Of a stretch of DNA of 31,740 nt, positions 6,001-31,740 are shown piece by piece. The translations under genes and the position numbers were made by a program. The notes under the pieces are model-generated. The model saw nothing but the letters and a program-made list of their open reading frames with translations. It did no database searches and was not told where the DNA came from. Where the stretch lies: IMG/VR virus record IMGVR_UViG_3300022890_000410, positions 1 to 31,740 of that record; one strand, written 5' to 3'. Source of the stretch: a virus. Positions within the stretch are counted from its first letter, which is position 1; every line of letters begins with the position of its first letter.

Positions 6001-7210
6001 GGTCTTTATCTATTACTGGCTCTTGCCAAGCTAACCCTGAAAGATATAAATTCATTGTTTCAAGATTAACAGCGTGTAAATCACTTGTTGGGTCTGCTAC
6101 TGTTAAAGGTTGTCCAAAGTCCCAATCACCTGTAACAGAATAATCTTGACCTTGAACTCTAGTATCAACTCTAGCGTTAGTATAAAAAAGATTAGTAGAG
6201 CCTTCTGTTAAATCATCAGTATCATCAACGCCCTTAATAAATATATTTTCTGATTCATTAAAAGTAAGGTGGTAATATTCATTACTAGCTCCACCTTGCA
6301 AACCAAGCAGAGAATTATGACTAAAAGCACTACCTAAACTATTCCAGTTCCAATCATCAGAATTAAAAGTATAAAACATTCCATCAGCAATATTCTTCAA
6401 AGCCATCTGATTTGTTGGTGTAGTAGTAGCCCAACTTATGGTGTCCCATTCGTAAATAAACTGATTATACATAAATTGACTCGTAATAAGAGCAGTTGAA
6501 GTAGCGTCAGAAATGTATCTATCACCTAAAGTAGGGACAGCAGGTTCACTAGCAGAAAAATCAATTATATCCAAAACCGCTTCCTGCCAAGAAAGACCAC
6601 CAGTAGCATTAGCGTCAAAGTATGCTTTGTTAATAGCATCTCCACTATCAACTGGGTCTGAAACATTCTTAATCCTATTAGAACTAACATCAAGTAATTC
6701 AAGAGTAGTAGTACCACTACTAACCTCTAGTTTAGTTTGTGGGCTATTAGTTCCAATCCCAATTCTATTATTGGTAGTATCATAGAATAAATCACTATTA
6801 TTCTCAGCCAAACTATTAGTTCCATCAATATAAGCAATTGAACCAGGAGTTAAATAGTCAAGAGTAAGAAGCGTATCAACTGTTATATTAGTAGAGTTTA
6901 GATCAGTAAAAGTGCCATTGCCACCTACATATAGATTATCTGTTATTGTAGCGTTAGCTGGTAGTAAAACATCAACAGTAGAAGATGGAGTTAACTGACC
7001 AAAAGCATTGAATATCCAGTCACCTATGCCGGCTATACTACTTGGAAGAATCCAAGTGCTATCTGTTCCATCTGTTTGTAATATGTAATCAGCTGAAGGA
7101 CTAGAACCTACTTGGATAGAAAGAAACGGATCAAGCCAATCAGCAAAAGCTACTGTCCCAAAACCGAACAATAGTATAAAAGTTAAAATTGTGAGATATA
7201 CTTTTTTCAT
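1..7210 (-). CDS. Giant modular tail fibre / surface adhesin with signal peptide (partial, C-terminus beyond window)
   Basis: The frame is open from ATG at 7210 to the window edge, about 2403 codons with no stop. Residues 1-23 look like a Sec signal peptide (MKK, hydrophobic core, AFA then DW). Next come phage-fibre units with NRIGIGTNSPQTKLEV-type motifs, a DUF2793-like unit (WQEAVLD..LGDRYI..YEWD, about 6595-6250) and a second such unit (WQEP at about 6028) that is split by a DUF2341 plus LamG-like lectin cassette (about 5937-4962). The rest is Thr/Ser-rich with GNATTTG-type repeats, two YadA-head-like clusters (about 2830-2460 and 1625-1285; motifs NTAVG, NTAIGHSAG) and NVGIGT motifs. The last residues before the edge look helical (IKYLIKAVQELFTKV). 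It is the last gene seen of the virion operon, one base after the preceding fibre gene. The probable role is host recognition on the virion. A secreted surface protein is the alternative, because of the signal peptide. Confidence 0.85.
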   Translation of the reverse strand, partial: MKKVYLTILTFILLFGFGTVAFADWLDPFLSIQVGSSPSADYILQTDGTDSTWILPSSIAGIGDWIFNAFGQLTPSSTVDVLLPANATITDNLYVGGNGTFTDLNSTNITVDTLLTLDYLTPGSIAYIDGTNSLAENNSDLFYDTTNNRIGIGTNSPQTKLEVSSGTTTLELLDVSSNRIKNVSDPVDSGDAINKAYFDANATGGLSWQEAVLDIIDFSASEPAVPTLGDRYISDATSTALITSQFMYNQFIYEWDTISWATTTPTNQMALKNIADGMFYTFNSDDWNWNSLGSAFSHNSLLGLQGGASNEYYHLTFNESENIFIKGVDDTDDLTEGSTNLFYTNARVDTRVQGQDYSVTGDWDFGQPLTVADPTSDLHAVNLETMNLYLSGLAWQEPVIDKDLSTPPGSPTLGDRYIVAGSASNWYNTSWSNRQELDLANADVTSAMTDYPVLIKLTDSGNSVFATAQANGNDILFTDEDGNKLKHELEAFNATDELIAHVKVPYLNSTSTTNIYMYYGNAVAGNQQEVADTWDSDYEMVYHFGETSGSADDSTGVYDASNTNVSYSATGKIGDAYDYNGSNSYTDTNYTTSLSASDFTIEGWFKADSTTEVYAIAQAHTAPGYSSDFIFYYNGASNLWWMRSKQLAQPGGFTGTNWNYIVMAWDETAGTYEGFVNGVSAGTSPVVTGYGGLNSIKIGTRGDAVSSFWGGIMDEVKISASIRSDDYISTTFNIQDDPANFVTFGAEESISASGDWAGHVDDITEWDGVSWTFATPESGWATIVTDEELQYTFNGSVWALSSGAVSAHNDTTGKQGGKTGEYFHWESADYTEVTSWLDDVVLSDGGSMNIGTGDFNTTGNIATVEDITAAGIIQGEMVLANGSGSHPSGIGAYLELYVLSGTTARILPYDGSSYYDLAIGDWNGGDPNIMLKTGGKVGINEGSPEKKLHVNGDGYFKGSADTEQLTVRGYLNQADDIFVVEKSDGTDLFTVDNLGNATTTGDLKIEGSLSIDGSVNFATTTWTFDDGNNVGSLEQKVFDSNSVPYNADIKKGIVMSVFGLLDYGYIWNTTDDQGPFMAFGSEDSVEAGIMGYNTTTSSFSFANVVVKSPGVTETEPLEYIIFASEVITQIASTSDAIFGMNVDGTDATSEVSSQLRLSSTTGALHFENATLYDFTDDMQITGNVHTFGSSTTTGSLYVGAAPGAGDASALNYDAISSFGVHTRNLFLYADDITTGTAYYNIFSGSVDAPTDSDANMFILKNSFTIEGTSNYTGAVVGLDSDLTQESTGNVNAMYGSNIGVELANTGNVDTVVGGAFSIDNGPGDTDGGGDINDGQIVVADYTSNDLAGTNTSIKLFNTVIDHQNGTSTDIYNFYSNALSYTGGRVDRHYGFYSPTGWGTSQATTSYPLYIADGTSYLGGDLLVGGNATTTGYMSSSHFKIGDNTVLQDAGTDSIFVGIRAGQDNTGWSCVAVGDEALFSSNSGNYNTAVGRYSMRTNDDGTRNTADGYRSLYANITGDENTAGGYQALTKSIGNFNTSYGSQSITQNTSGDYNTAVGSITFLNNLTGSGNVGLGYYAGAYETGSNSFYVNNQDRTDTAGDKTKSLLYGTFAVDSADQQLTVNGNLNVTGNSTTTDSFYVGGDLEVGDDATITNKLYVGNHKIESDATLSALAVQGQTSGQPTYFAVGNKDDDGTDYAGLVVSGRNAFTDIANREVLIMQWNTGGKYDINTFAAGTGTARDLDIYAGSGNGGQLYLEAGGDVRIPNLYSTSTSMTNATTTGTMSATTIEVNDDYITDFTGTNLSVTAGVLNVSGISSGNPFDQWLDTTSTVQFATTTISGILSLNDGGNSTYVGEFAGVVDDRTDNRNVGMGTYALWRNTSGYQNTAIGHSAGSSITEGYGNATLGYQSGNSLSTGDYNTLIGTGSGSGIVGGNNNTTLGYNSGDKITSGLGNTTLGNNSGDNITTGDYNITIGTVSDVASATADNQMNIGNVIFGTSINGAIGTGNVGIGTDAPGALLDVRGDAIFNEAGDNYDFRVEGLTNPNMITIDASQDKILIGSPTRTSNNNAIMLFNTVEDDLISAHLSNVEGIIGHFGGNDFGFSANIKPSTDAQIRAGYAGSKIESGIELIKLSTMNTAGTITERMRVHTNGNVGIGTASPNVTLDVVGTAANGDDKFDMMLDSQTNDGLSGGMMLRGFLPRLAFDDQSTGANWMDMRMDGNDLIFGGGDNTDIFSRTVDNILFLSSDTGNVGLGVINPTKTLQLGASDDVWITDGSICVENSGGTNCAGSTDGVVYADDFVEHSRPIPEGDALSVIMNMKNKEDGTLDHKSFPSYVSNEVSWEDTYEYKYDEKGATTTETLIKESGSKVNEGVSLSSQIKYLIKAVQELFTKVQLALGWNQDNE

Positions 7211-7211
7211 T

Positions 7212-8012
7212 TTAGCCAATATACTTAATTTCAAAATCTCTAGTAGAATACGCAGCTGGAATTGCACTAGCAAAAGTTATTGTTTTACCAACATAAGTAA
7301 AGTTAGGTAGTTCTGCTATCTGCTGGTTGCTTATAGTGAACCCTGCCACCCACCAAATGTTCTTAGCAACTGTAAACACTTTATTAGTTCCATTAATAAG
7401 TCCAACAGGTTTTTCAGTATGAGCAATATATTTGAAAGTCTGTGCAACACCTGCGGCTGACGTACCACCACCTTTTAGTCGTTTGTTTCTGGCAAGGTCT
7501 TCTCTGAGTTTTAAAATATCTTCTGAATTACTTTCAACATTTATTGAGTGGTCTGGTATCTTATCTAATACTTTTTGAATTATTTTTTCTTCGTCTGCAT
7601 CTTTACCTGGCTTACCCTCTATACTTTTCCCGTCTTCACCATCTTTAATCTTCCTTACCTTATCTCTTATAAAATTTAAGCTGTTCTCCTGGTCTTTTAG
7701 TGCTTTATTAAGTGATACTTCAAACCTATCGGCTACTGCCCTTAGAGTGGCTTGTGTGGCTTCTAGGGAGGTACTATTAGCACCTTTTAGCTCGGCTATA
7801 GCCTTATTAACCTTTTCTACCAACTTAATCTCAGTTCTTAAAGTATGTTCAGTAATCTTCTTAAATGACTTTATGAACTCATCTTTTGAAAGTCCGTCAT
7901 TAAGTAAAGCTAAAACCTCTTTAAGTTTATCAGGGGTCAACTTATTTGATTTTACTATCTCAAGAAGTTTCTTTAGTTTTTCTTTTTTAGTCAAGTTCAC
8001 CATATTTATCAA
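7212..8012 (-). CDS. Coiled-coil tail fibre or tail-tip protein with short collagen-like segment
   Basis: A 266-aa protein. Residues 1-125 are charged and helical, probably coiled coil. They are followed by a short Gly-Lys/Asp collagen-like stretch (DGEDGKSIEGKPGKD) near residue 130. A compact C-terminal beta domain covers about 190-266 (FKYIAHTEKPVGLINGTNKVF, IPAAYSTRDFEIKYIG). This layout (helical shaft, flexible Gly segment, C-terminal beta domain) is common in phage tail fibres and tail tips. It lies directly upstream of the giant fibre with a one-base gap, so the two are probably co-translated and may assemble together. There is no signal peptide, unlike its neighbour. A second ATG three codons downstream could also serve as start. 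The exact role is inferred from architecture and position. Confidence 0.65.
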   Translation of the reverse strand: MINMVNLTKKEKLKKLLEIVKSNKLTPDKLKEVLALLNDGLSKDEFIKSFKKITEHTLRTEIKLVEKVNKAIAELKGANSTSLEATQATLRAVADRFEVSLNKALKDQENSLNFIRDKVRKIKDGEDGKSIEGKPGKDADEEKIIQKVLDKIPDHSINVESNSEDILKLREDLARNKRLKGGGTSAAGVAQTFKYIAHTEKPVGLINGTNKVFTVAKNIWWVAGFTISNQQIAELPNFTYVGKTITFASAIPAAYSTRDFEIKYIG

Positions 8013-26958: not shown

Positions 26959-27408
26959 ATGAAAGACCTAATAAATAAAGTAATTCACGGAGACTGCATA
27001 ATACAATTAGATAAGCTACCTGACAACTCTGTCGACACCATAATAACTGACCCACCCTATGGTCTTAGCTTTATGGGTAAGAAATGGGACTATGATGTGC
27101 CTAGTGTAGCTATTTGGCAGGAATGTCTAAGGGTGTTAAAACCAGGGGGTACTGCCCTTATATTTGCAGGTAGTAGAACTCAACACCGTATGGCGTGTAA
27201 TGTTGAGGACTCAGGATTTGAACTTAGAGATTGTATAATGTGGCTATATGGGTCAGGATGTGTCCTCGATCCGTTCGCGGGTTCAGGTACAACAGGAGTA
27301 GCGTGTCAGAATACAGGGCGGGACTTCATACTAATAGAACGAGAAGAAGAATATATAAACATAATAAAGGCACGTCTAAGTCAATCTAAACAGAAGAAGC
27401 TATTATAG
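26959..27408 (+). CDS. DNA methyltransferase (N6-adenine/N4-cytosine type), internally shortened (149 aa)
   Basis: This belongs to the N6_N4 methyltransferase family. The catalytic motif TDPPYGLSFMGKKWDYD has DPPY at 31-34, followed by LRVLKPGGTALIFAGSRTQH and RDCIMWLYGSG (to residue 100). The SAM-binding motif VLDPFAGSGTTGVA (102-115) and a C-terminal FILIEREEEYINIIKARL come next. In full-length phage relatives the YGSG motif and the VLDPF motif are separated by some 200 or more residues carrying the target-recognition region. Here they are directly joined in frame at about base 27258. The enzyme may be inactive, may need a partner, or may be a deletion product. Overlap-free spacing and an intact frame argue against random decay. 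Confidence 0.8.
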   Translation: MKDLINKVIHGDCIIQLDKLPDNSVDTIITDPPYGLSFMGKKWDYDVPSVAIWQECLRVLKPGGTALIFAGSRTQHRMACNVEDSGFELRDCIMWLYGSGCVLDPFAGSGTTGVACQNTGRDFILIEREEEYINIIKARLSQSKQKKLL

Positions 27409-30902: not shown

Positions 30903-31271
30903 ATGACCTTACTATTAATTATTATGGCACTTGCATTTCCCGATCCCTGCACCCTGCAAAGTGTCGTGTGTGACTATGAAAAAACAACAATCATTGAAGC
31001 GACAGTCTATGGCTATAATAGTGAAGTTGGGCAATGTGACGATTCGCCTTTTATTACTGCCAGTGGCTATGATTTGCATAATGGTGGTAACATTGTTGCT
31101 AATAATTGTCAGCCTTTCGGCATTCTCGTACGAATTGGTGAGAGAACTTACGTCGTTGAAGACAGAATGAATAGTAGATACGGGTGCGAGGTGTTTGATA
31201 TTTGGTTTGAGCATAAGACAGACGCACTTAACTGGGGAAAAAGAACTTTAAATATAGAGGTAATTAATTAA
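30903..31271 (+). CDS. 3D-domain cell-wall lytic protein (122 aa)
   Basis: The sequence matches the 3D (MltA/RlpA-like double-psi barrel) domain: ATVYGYNSEVG, DDSPFITASGYDLHNGG, IVANNCQPFGILVRIG, TYVVEDRMNSRYG, then EVFDIWFEHKTDALNWGKRT. Asp residues of the last two motifs (EDRMN and FDIWF) are present, while the first usual Asp is Asn in VANN. Related proteins cleave or bind peptidoglycan. A short N-terminal hydrophobic stretch (TLLLIIMALAF) may serve export. It could be the lysis enzyme or a wall-entry factor. It follows the zincin-like gene by three bases. Confidence 0.7.
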   Translation: MTLLLIIMALAFPDPCTLQSVVCDYEKTTIIEATVYGYNSEVGQCDDSPFITASGYDLHNGGNIVANNCQPFGILVRIGERTYVVEDRMNSRYGCEVFDIWFEHKTDALNWGKRTLNIEVIN

Positions 31272-31283
31272 ATAAAAAAACTT

Positions 31284-31595
31284 ATGCCAACAATCGAAGT
31301 GAGTGATGAAACACTCGAAAAAATCAAAGACCAACTTGGGTCTGAAATCCAAGTAAAAGAGATAAATAATTTAGAAGATTTGATTGGAGAAACTTATCTT
31401 TTTCAATGTGCTAGATACATTTATCACGGAAAAGTTAAATCAATTAATGGTACTTACATTGAATTAGAAGATGCTAGTGTAGTATTTGAAACTGGACAAT
31501 ATGATGCTAAAGCAGCAGATGATAAGCAAAAACTTCCAAAAAATTGTTATGTAATGCGTCAAGCTATTGAATCATTTTATAAATTAAAATGGTAA
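31284..31595 (+). CDS. Unknown protein next to repeat ORF (103 aa)
   Basis: It starts MPTIEVSDETLEKIKDQLGS with a helix, followed by a beta-rich core (GETYLFQCARYIYHGKVKSI, NGTYIELEDASVVFETGQYD) and a C-terminal YVMRQAIESFYKLKW. The core resembles small conserved proteins of phages and host-associated genomes in which an aromatic strand is followed by ELEDAS-type motifs, but no function is known to me. It lies directly before the hexanucleotide-repeat ORF (three-base gap), so the two are probably co-expressed. Confidence 0.55.
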   Translation: MPTIEVSDETLEKIKDQLGSEIQVKEINNLEDLIGETYLFQCARYIYHGKVKSINGTYIELEDASVVFETGQYDAKAADDKQKLPKNCYVMRQAIESFYKLKW

Positions 31596-31598
31596 GAT

Positions 31599-31740
31599 AT
31601 GTTTTTGATTAATACTTATAGTTTATCACCTTGGTCTGGGTCTCGGTCTGGGTCTCGGTCTTGGTCTTGGTCTGGGTCTGGGTCTCGGTCTTGGTCTCAG
31701 TCTTGGTCTCGGTCTCGGTCTGGGTCTCGGTCTGGGTCTT
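31599..31740 (+). CDS. Ser-[Gly/Arg/Trp] dipeptide-repeat protein (partial, runs off window)
   Basis: ATG at 31599 (three bases after the previous stop) begins MFLINTYSLSP, then an uninterrupted alternation of Ser with Trp, Gly, Arg and once Gln to the window edge. Ser is always TCT. The other codon is TGG, GGG or CGG, with one CAG. No stop occurs in any of the three plus frames within the array. The ATG-led frame and the neighbouring gene support this reading. The true C-terminus and length are unknown. Function is unknown; the charge- and aromatic-rich repeat could drive binding or phase separation. Confidence 0.5.
   Translation, partial: MFLINTYSLSPWSGSRSGSRSWSWSGSGSRSWSQSWSRSRSGSRSGS
31632..31740 (+). 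repeat. Hexanucleotide tandem array with one variable base per unit
   Basis: The unit is NGGTCT, repeated 18 times to the window edge, with one CAGTCT variant at 31698. Only the first base of the unit varies: in order T G C G C T T G G C T C(AG) T C C G C G. A is never seen at that base. Repeat continuation beyond 31740 is unknown. Confidence 0.9.

Follow-up and report, generated by a model that had tools for sequence, protein, structure and literature searches.

Sm, LSm and Hfq proteins share a fold with an N-terminal helix and a five-stranded barrel, and RG-rich tails occur on eukaryotic Sm proteins. In eukaryotic RNA-binding proteins, the RS and RGG low-complexity domains are made up of arginine, serine, glycine and aromatic residues, the order of which is seemingly unimportant. 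Coding tandem repeats of the slippage type gain and lose units, and in diversity-generating retroelements variation is limited to certain positions. DUF6948 (PF22253) is a family already present in Pfam.

The window considered here is an entire viral contig of 31,740 bases, which ends within a hexamer array preceded by a small gene, hereafter the partner (Table 1). The partner is like Sm, LSm and Hfq proteins in predicted fold (Z about 10, 65-70 residues, about 2 Å), but it has no detectable Sm sequence match, the repeat tail is a separate ORF, and a ring and RNA binding are putative. The repeat is analogous to RS and RGG domains in composition and apparent order-independence, and is distinguished from them by strict Ser-x alternation, NGG codons and phage origin. 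As in slippage-type repeats, units are gained and lost and each array keeps one codon set; unlike them, the visible variation falls mainly on one residue-changing base, and a three-residue alphabet is held at 1:1:1. The restriction of variation to certain positions recalls diversity-generating retroelements, but their mode of mutation was rejected since the variation is not adenine-specific: at the variable base N the window has T, G or C, and its relatives have T/G/A or T/G/C. In the DUF6948 pair, as in the family to which the window's pair belongs, a small barrel-like gene is followed by a short dipeptide-repeat ORF that overlaps its stop, with hexamer units that vary mostly at one codon base. 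It differs in that the repeat, Gly-[Y/D/S/N], is anionic and the partner is neutral to basic and represented in Pfam. A search of the open-access literature (subscription papers were outside its scope) found no description of the repeat strings, of DUF6948 or of a phage Sm-like pair. The novelty lies in the two-gene module, the Sm fold and DUF6948 being already known.

Table 1. Positions of the features discussed, in the window and in related contigs
Feature	Contig	Position	Strand	Remarks
DNA methyltransferase ORF, 149 aa	window	26959..27408	+	
Small gene, hydrophobic N-terminus	window	30903..31271	+	
Partner gene, 103 aa, acidic, predicted Sm/LSm fold	window	31284..31595	+	stop TAA 31593-31595
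Repeat ORF, 5′ part only	window	31599..31740	+	cut by contig end; leader, then Ser-[Trp/Arg/Gly] repeat
Leader MFLINTYSLSP, 11 codons	window	31599..31631	+	starts at ATG 31599
Hexamer array, 18 units	window	31632..31739	+	6 GGGTCT, 6 CGGTCT, 5 TGGTCT, 1 CAGTCT
Deviating 12th unit CAGTCT (Gln-Ser)	window	31698..31703	+	
Complete repeat ORF, 58 aa	L132	6316-6492		MFLINTYSLSPWSGSRSG...SWSN
Hammerhead-ribozyme-like core	L132	6755-6802	+	CUGAUGAG..GAAAC..GUC
Second coding repeat, 9-nt units	L132	about 6960-7150		AATTCCTGC
Second coding repeat, 9-nt units	L136	about 7330-7570		
Two MFLIN-leader repeat ORFs in tandem	L137	6303-6640		behind a single partner gene
Short Gly-Tyr repeat	L795 (MT835900)	1169 onwards		near start of larger protein

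Reading frame of the array

The array scores 137-171 by TRF, far above chance expectation. Its extension past position 31740, proposed as a check in the preliminary description, is supplied by two contigs nearly identical to the window, L132 (99.985% over an overlap of 6,458 b) and L133 (100% over its overlap). Both cross the whole array, which runs to 23 units followed by Asn and TAA. An assembly artefact is thereby rejected: the array is genuine and merely truncated in the window by the contig end. Viral contigs often stop inside such arrays, 17 of 118 doing so in the partner-gene survey (L564, L565, L572, L575, L584, L589, L594 and L595 among others); the repeat therefore breaks assemblies.

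The preliminary description had counted 18 NGGTCT units varying only at N, with T, C and G about equally used and A never. This holds for 17 of the 18, the twelfth being the exception (Table 1). The counts at N are C7, G6, T5 and A0, and the probability of finding no A if the bases were equally used is 0.0056, close to the 0.006 given there. Its account of the frames was also correct, in that the ATG-led frame reads Ser-[Gly/Arg/Trp] and N is silent in the Gly-Leu frame.

With the 103-aa upstream gene as query nine loci were found, and in all of those reaching far enough a small ORF lies right behind the gene with, as read by eye, the same residue pattern in other codons. Ser is encoded by TCT, TCG (L138, L140) or AGC (L135), and Arg by CGG or AGG. 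A larger set of 232 distinct arrays, each of at least 10 units and with all three residues, was drawn from the matches listed in three NGG-Ser scans of viral contigs and from homologues. Among these the composition is W.323, R.339 and G.338, and a single Arg codon is used in 196 of the 232 arrays, compared with 15 expected. Arrays with AGG have low-GC flanks (mean.415) and those with CGG high-GC flanks (.528; p 3e-16). In the same listed set the commonest Ser codon accounts on average for 97.6% of the units of an array, yet it varies between arrays (TCT in 124, TCG in 66, TCA in 24, AGC in 13, AGT in 3 and TCC in 2).

Because the arrays were collected in open frames, stops inside them are uninformative. 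Beyond the arrays listed, the median distance to a stop is 1 codon in the Ser frame, against 11 and 9 in the other frames; 79% of the arrays have a stop within 3 codons in the Ser frame, and 6% and 33% in the others. An upstream ATG with no intervening stop is present for 192 of the 232 in the Ser frame, and for 38 and 37 in the others. The Thr analogue NGGACT is rare (54 contigs, two of them with W, R and G together), and in contigs of bacterial and archaeal genomes all three residues are found in just 3 of 120 NGGTCT arrays. The switching of Ser and Arg codons while the residues stay, the placement of ATG and stop, and the rarity of the Thr version establish that the array is coded in the ATG-led Ser-[Trp/Arg/Gly] frame.

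Selection in the Gly-Leu frame, which had also been suggested, would agree with the silence of N there. However, a change of the Ser codon from TCT to TCG, TCA or AGC would leave Gly-Arg, Gly-Gln or Gly-Ala in that frame, whereas Ser-[W/R/G] persists, and the ATG and stop placement does not match that frame; the idea can be regarded as refuted. Minus-strand frames were rejected on the same two grounds. The lack of A at N is local to the window, most relatives using AGG and having no C; it arises because each array keeps to a single Arg codon, with no special mechanism involved. Avoidance of A because it creates TAG in other frames would fit the window, but was rejected in view of the AGG used by most relatives.

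Silent sites are near-invariant within single arrays, which leaves room for a constraint at the DNA or RNA level such as GG every 6 nt. It might be supposed that a two-quartet G-quadruplex with this spacing, or a run of translation-slowing NGG codons, is what is selected, the peptide being a by-product. In arrays collected through the partner gene, an unbiased set in which W, R and G fill 87% of the X positions, NGG makes up 92% of the Arg and 91% of the Gly codons, and in arrays encoding Gly-[Tyr/Asp] GG likewise recurs at 6-nt intervals. Expression is reported to fall, via peptidyl-tRNA drop-off, when NGG codons lie close to the start (PMC12204400). Selection on the nucleic acid is nevertheless improbable, for Ser is retained via both TCN and AGY codons, the stop and ATG follow the Ser frame, leaders are conserved and Thr versions are rare.

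Turnover of units and variation at N

Contigs L034 and L046 agree at 99.8% over 900 flanking bases and at 99.7% over 734, and the array is nonetheless rearranged. Sixteen close pairs with a flank divergence of 4.8% differ by 153 unit indels and by 53 changes at N, a number that may include indels which the unit alignment turns into apparent N changes. Positions outside N have 2 to 13 changes each in these pairs, the third Ser base being the least variable with 2. Along the arrays W, R and G follow one another in near-random order. Arrays evolve mainly via the gain, loss and exchange of units. Since the units differ almost solely at N, exchange between them would alter mainly N, and an N-targeted mutator is not required to explain the variation. 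Of the earlier suggestion that a diversification or slippage mechanism targets N, the slippage-like dynamics are borne out and the targeting is dispensable. On their own, the repeat dynamics are ordinary.

In some phages (L013, L071, L124, L153) the repeat ORF is present in at least four copies in tandem, their leaders conserved; the two in L137 are listed in Table 1. Rapid unit turnover beside nearly identical flanks is what might be expected if a dispensable ORF contained a slippage array that is neutral or selfish. That explanation is already disfavored and highly improbable, given that the 1:1:1 composition is constant across codon types, that the tandem paralogues have conserved leaders and that the arrays remain paired with highly diverged partners, as described below.

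The partner gene and its predicted fold

An HMM grown from homologues of the 103-aa gene identified 144 relatives within array loci. A relative lies directly upstream in 104 of the 122 array loci that have at least 450 nt of upstream sequence, the commonest gap being -4 (an ATGA overlap); in the window the repeat ORF starts just after the partner stop. In a reverse test, loci were collected among viral contigs via the partner gene alone, and 112 had readable downstream sequence. A Ser-[W/R/G] ORF is next in 107 of these, usually with the 4-nt ATGA overlap, so the two-gene system proposed in the preliminary description is well founded. No fused partner-repeat ORF was present among 1176 array-bearing ORFs. 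Leader type tracks partner subtype: basic leaders occur with FCxxYIY, LRxG[YF][DE] leaders with the RTVT subtype and MFLIN leaders with FQCARYIY.

The module is seen in hundreds of uncultured phages. Among 50,697 phage records the partner is found in two, both from Manatee Spring and both with the repeat ORF. In sampled phyla there were no matches to the partner in 398 genomes of one and 395 of another, and one match in 380 Patescibacteria genomes. Two clear cassettes lie on L465 and L496, contigs assigned to Patescibacteria bins; because 379 of the 380 genomes of that phylum are without the partner, these are probably misbinned phage. Neighboring genes that can be named are mostly those of replication and recombination.

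Several other features were observed (Table 1). The small gene upstream of the partner has, in its C-terminal part, weak similarity to phage peptidase families (phrog_6631, E 1.8e-7; phrog_2307), and in L134 a similar gene is directly behind the array. The methyltransferase ORF aligns in two stretches with longer families, at their start and at their end, and looks as though its middle were missing. Just downstream of the window's locus, the hammerhead-like core scores 20.8 bits with Rfam HH9, for which the gathering score is 52; the E is 0.013 for a stretch of 511 b. The nearby 9-nt repeat encodes Asn/Asp-Ser/Tyr/Phe-Cys and runs into a conserved protein (MSEKMIFCLGEGKYE...).

The partner has no passing match in Pfam, PHROG, NCBIfam or PADLOC. 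AF2 models of the window partner (pLDDT 88.6) and of an RTVT-type relative (91.4) both match Sm/LSm proteins, with a best Foldseek E of 6.8e-4. In VIA-align comparisons with the PDB all listed rows are Sm/LSm, the best Z being 10.2, with 64-68 residues aligned at 1.4-2.1 Å. Both the N-terminal helix and the five-stranded barrel are present in the predicted models, and a viral protein among the fold matches is annotated as RNA-binding. At the sequence level there was no Pfam LSM match and no match among PDB sequences, and hhalign against one archaeal Sm sequence gave 0.3%, with nothing detected. As sequence methods fail to reach Sm, the partner appears to resemble Sm/LSm proteins in fold only, a likeness and not proven membership.

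These matches raise the possibility of a ribonucleoprotein, in which the Sm-fold protein would form an Hfq/LSm-like RNA-binding ring and the Arg-rich repeat would act in trans as its RNA-binding tail. The fold matches to Sm/LSm in the PDB and to the viral RNA-binding protein, and a repeat rich in Arg, Ser, Gly and Trp, are consistent with such a particle. It is unlikely all the same: the partner is acidic (pI 4.8), which counts against simple RNA binding, it has no Sm sequence match, and the anionic repeats of the DUF6948 module would not bind RNA.

A parallel module and a possible assembly

Hexamer arrays encoding Gly-[Tyr/Asp/Ser/Asn] also form short ORFs. The partner-family HMM finds 7 genes upstream of such G[YD] arrays at E 5e-6 to 3e-4 in a search of a small set; when iterated, it reaches the gene just upstream in 55 of 75 G[YD] arrays, although its later rounds may drift. 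Four tested genes upstream of G[YD] arrays belong to DUF6948 with E about 1e-28, and the window partner and its relatives have no PF22253 match above the Pfam cut-off. Six DUF6948 phage records were inspected, and in each the end of the DUF6948 gene shares 13-17 nt with a Gly-rich repeat ORF. Cultured phages among the six include Iodobacter PhiPLPE, Chlorobiaceae CV-1-33, Pectobacterium Ymer and Vibrio IKEMa6-1, and examples of the genes are PhiPLPE gp84, CV-1-33 gene 26 and Ymer CDS0033. In a human fecal phage (MT835900), the DUF6948 neighbor is a larger protein with the short Gly-Tyr repeat near its start.

In both modules the charges of partner and repeat are complementary. Ser-[W/R/G] repeat ORFs have a median net charge of +10, and their partners a median pI of 4.83 and a mean net charge of -3.8. 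The partners of the anionic G[YDSN] repeats are neutral to basic, with a median pI of 7.83 and a mean net charge of +1.1. The difference in partner pI has a p of 4e-18, a value that contrasts two clades and overstates independence.

Two small overlapping genes of opposite charge could also be a toxin-antidote or exclusion pair, in which a cationic, Trp/Arg-rich peptide would be toxic or membrane-active and the acidic upstream protein would neutralize it. This is quite improbable, and somewhat more so than the ribonucleoprotein, in view of the acidic Gly-Tyr-Asp repeat of the parallel module, the lack of any toxin, antitoxin or defense-family match in Pfam or PADLOC, the replication and recombination genes nearby and the near-absence of the partner from the three phyla sampled. 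These two are the main rivals to a multivalent assembly.

The coding frame, the pairing, the predicted fold, the turnover of units and the parallel module are shown by the observations above. We infer further, with about even confidence, that the pair acts early in phage infection and that its two products associate to form a multivalent assembly. The opposite net charges, the link between leader type and partner subtype, and the overlap of the genes point to mutual binding. The first gene would provide a small acidic protein of predicted Sm/LSm fold and would be translationally linked to the second, which starts at or overlaps its stop and would encode a short low-complexity protein, a leader followed by the repeat. 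Every second residue of the repeat is Ser, a putative spacer; the positions between are divided about evenly among Trp, Arg and Gly, whose order is nearly random, and selection on the protein would preserve this composition and leave the order free. The array grows, shrinks and reshuffles, presumably by slippage or by recombination between unit types that are almost alike except for the first base of NGG; this would account for the variation at N and for the single Ser codon and, in most arrays, single Arg codon. The stickers may be Trp and Arg (or Tyr and Asp), with Ser and Gly as spacers and the leader as a dock for the partner. Composition that is kept while order is free is as expected for a sticker-spacer chain. 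The assembly, formed in early infection, would perhaps hold RNA or replication proteins.

More tentatively, and with some doubt, this may be an undescribed and widespread module: early in infection, an Sm-fold protein would co-assemble with a low-complexity protein of opposite charge and free residue order into a condensate- or RNP-like body. It would exist in at least two chemistries, a cationic Ser-[Trp/Arg/Gly] repeat with an acidic partner and an anionic Gly-[Tyr/Asp/Ser/Asn] repeat with a neutral-to-basic one.

Such a module easily escapes notice, since small repeat ORFs are readily taken for noise and contigs end within them. The cultured phages with the parallel module (PhiPLPE, CV-1-33 and Ymer) make it testable. 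The fixed pairing of a predicted Sm-fold protein with a minimal sticker-spacer repeat, seen in hundreds of phages and with two opposite charges, would offer a natural system in which to ask whether composition without order suffices for the function of a low-complexity protein, and whether phages build RNA or protein assemblies of their own.
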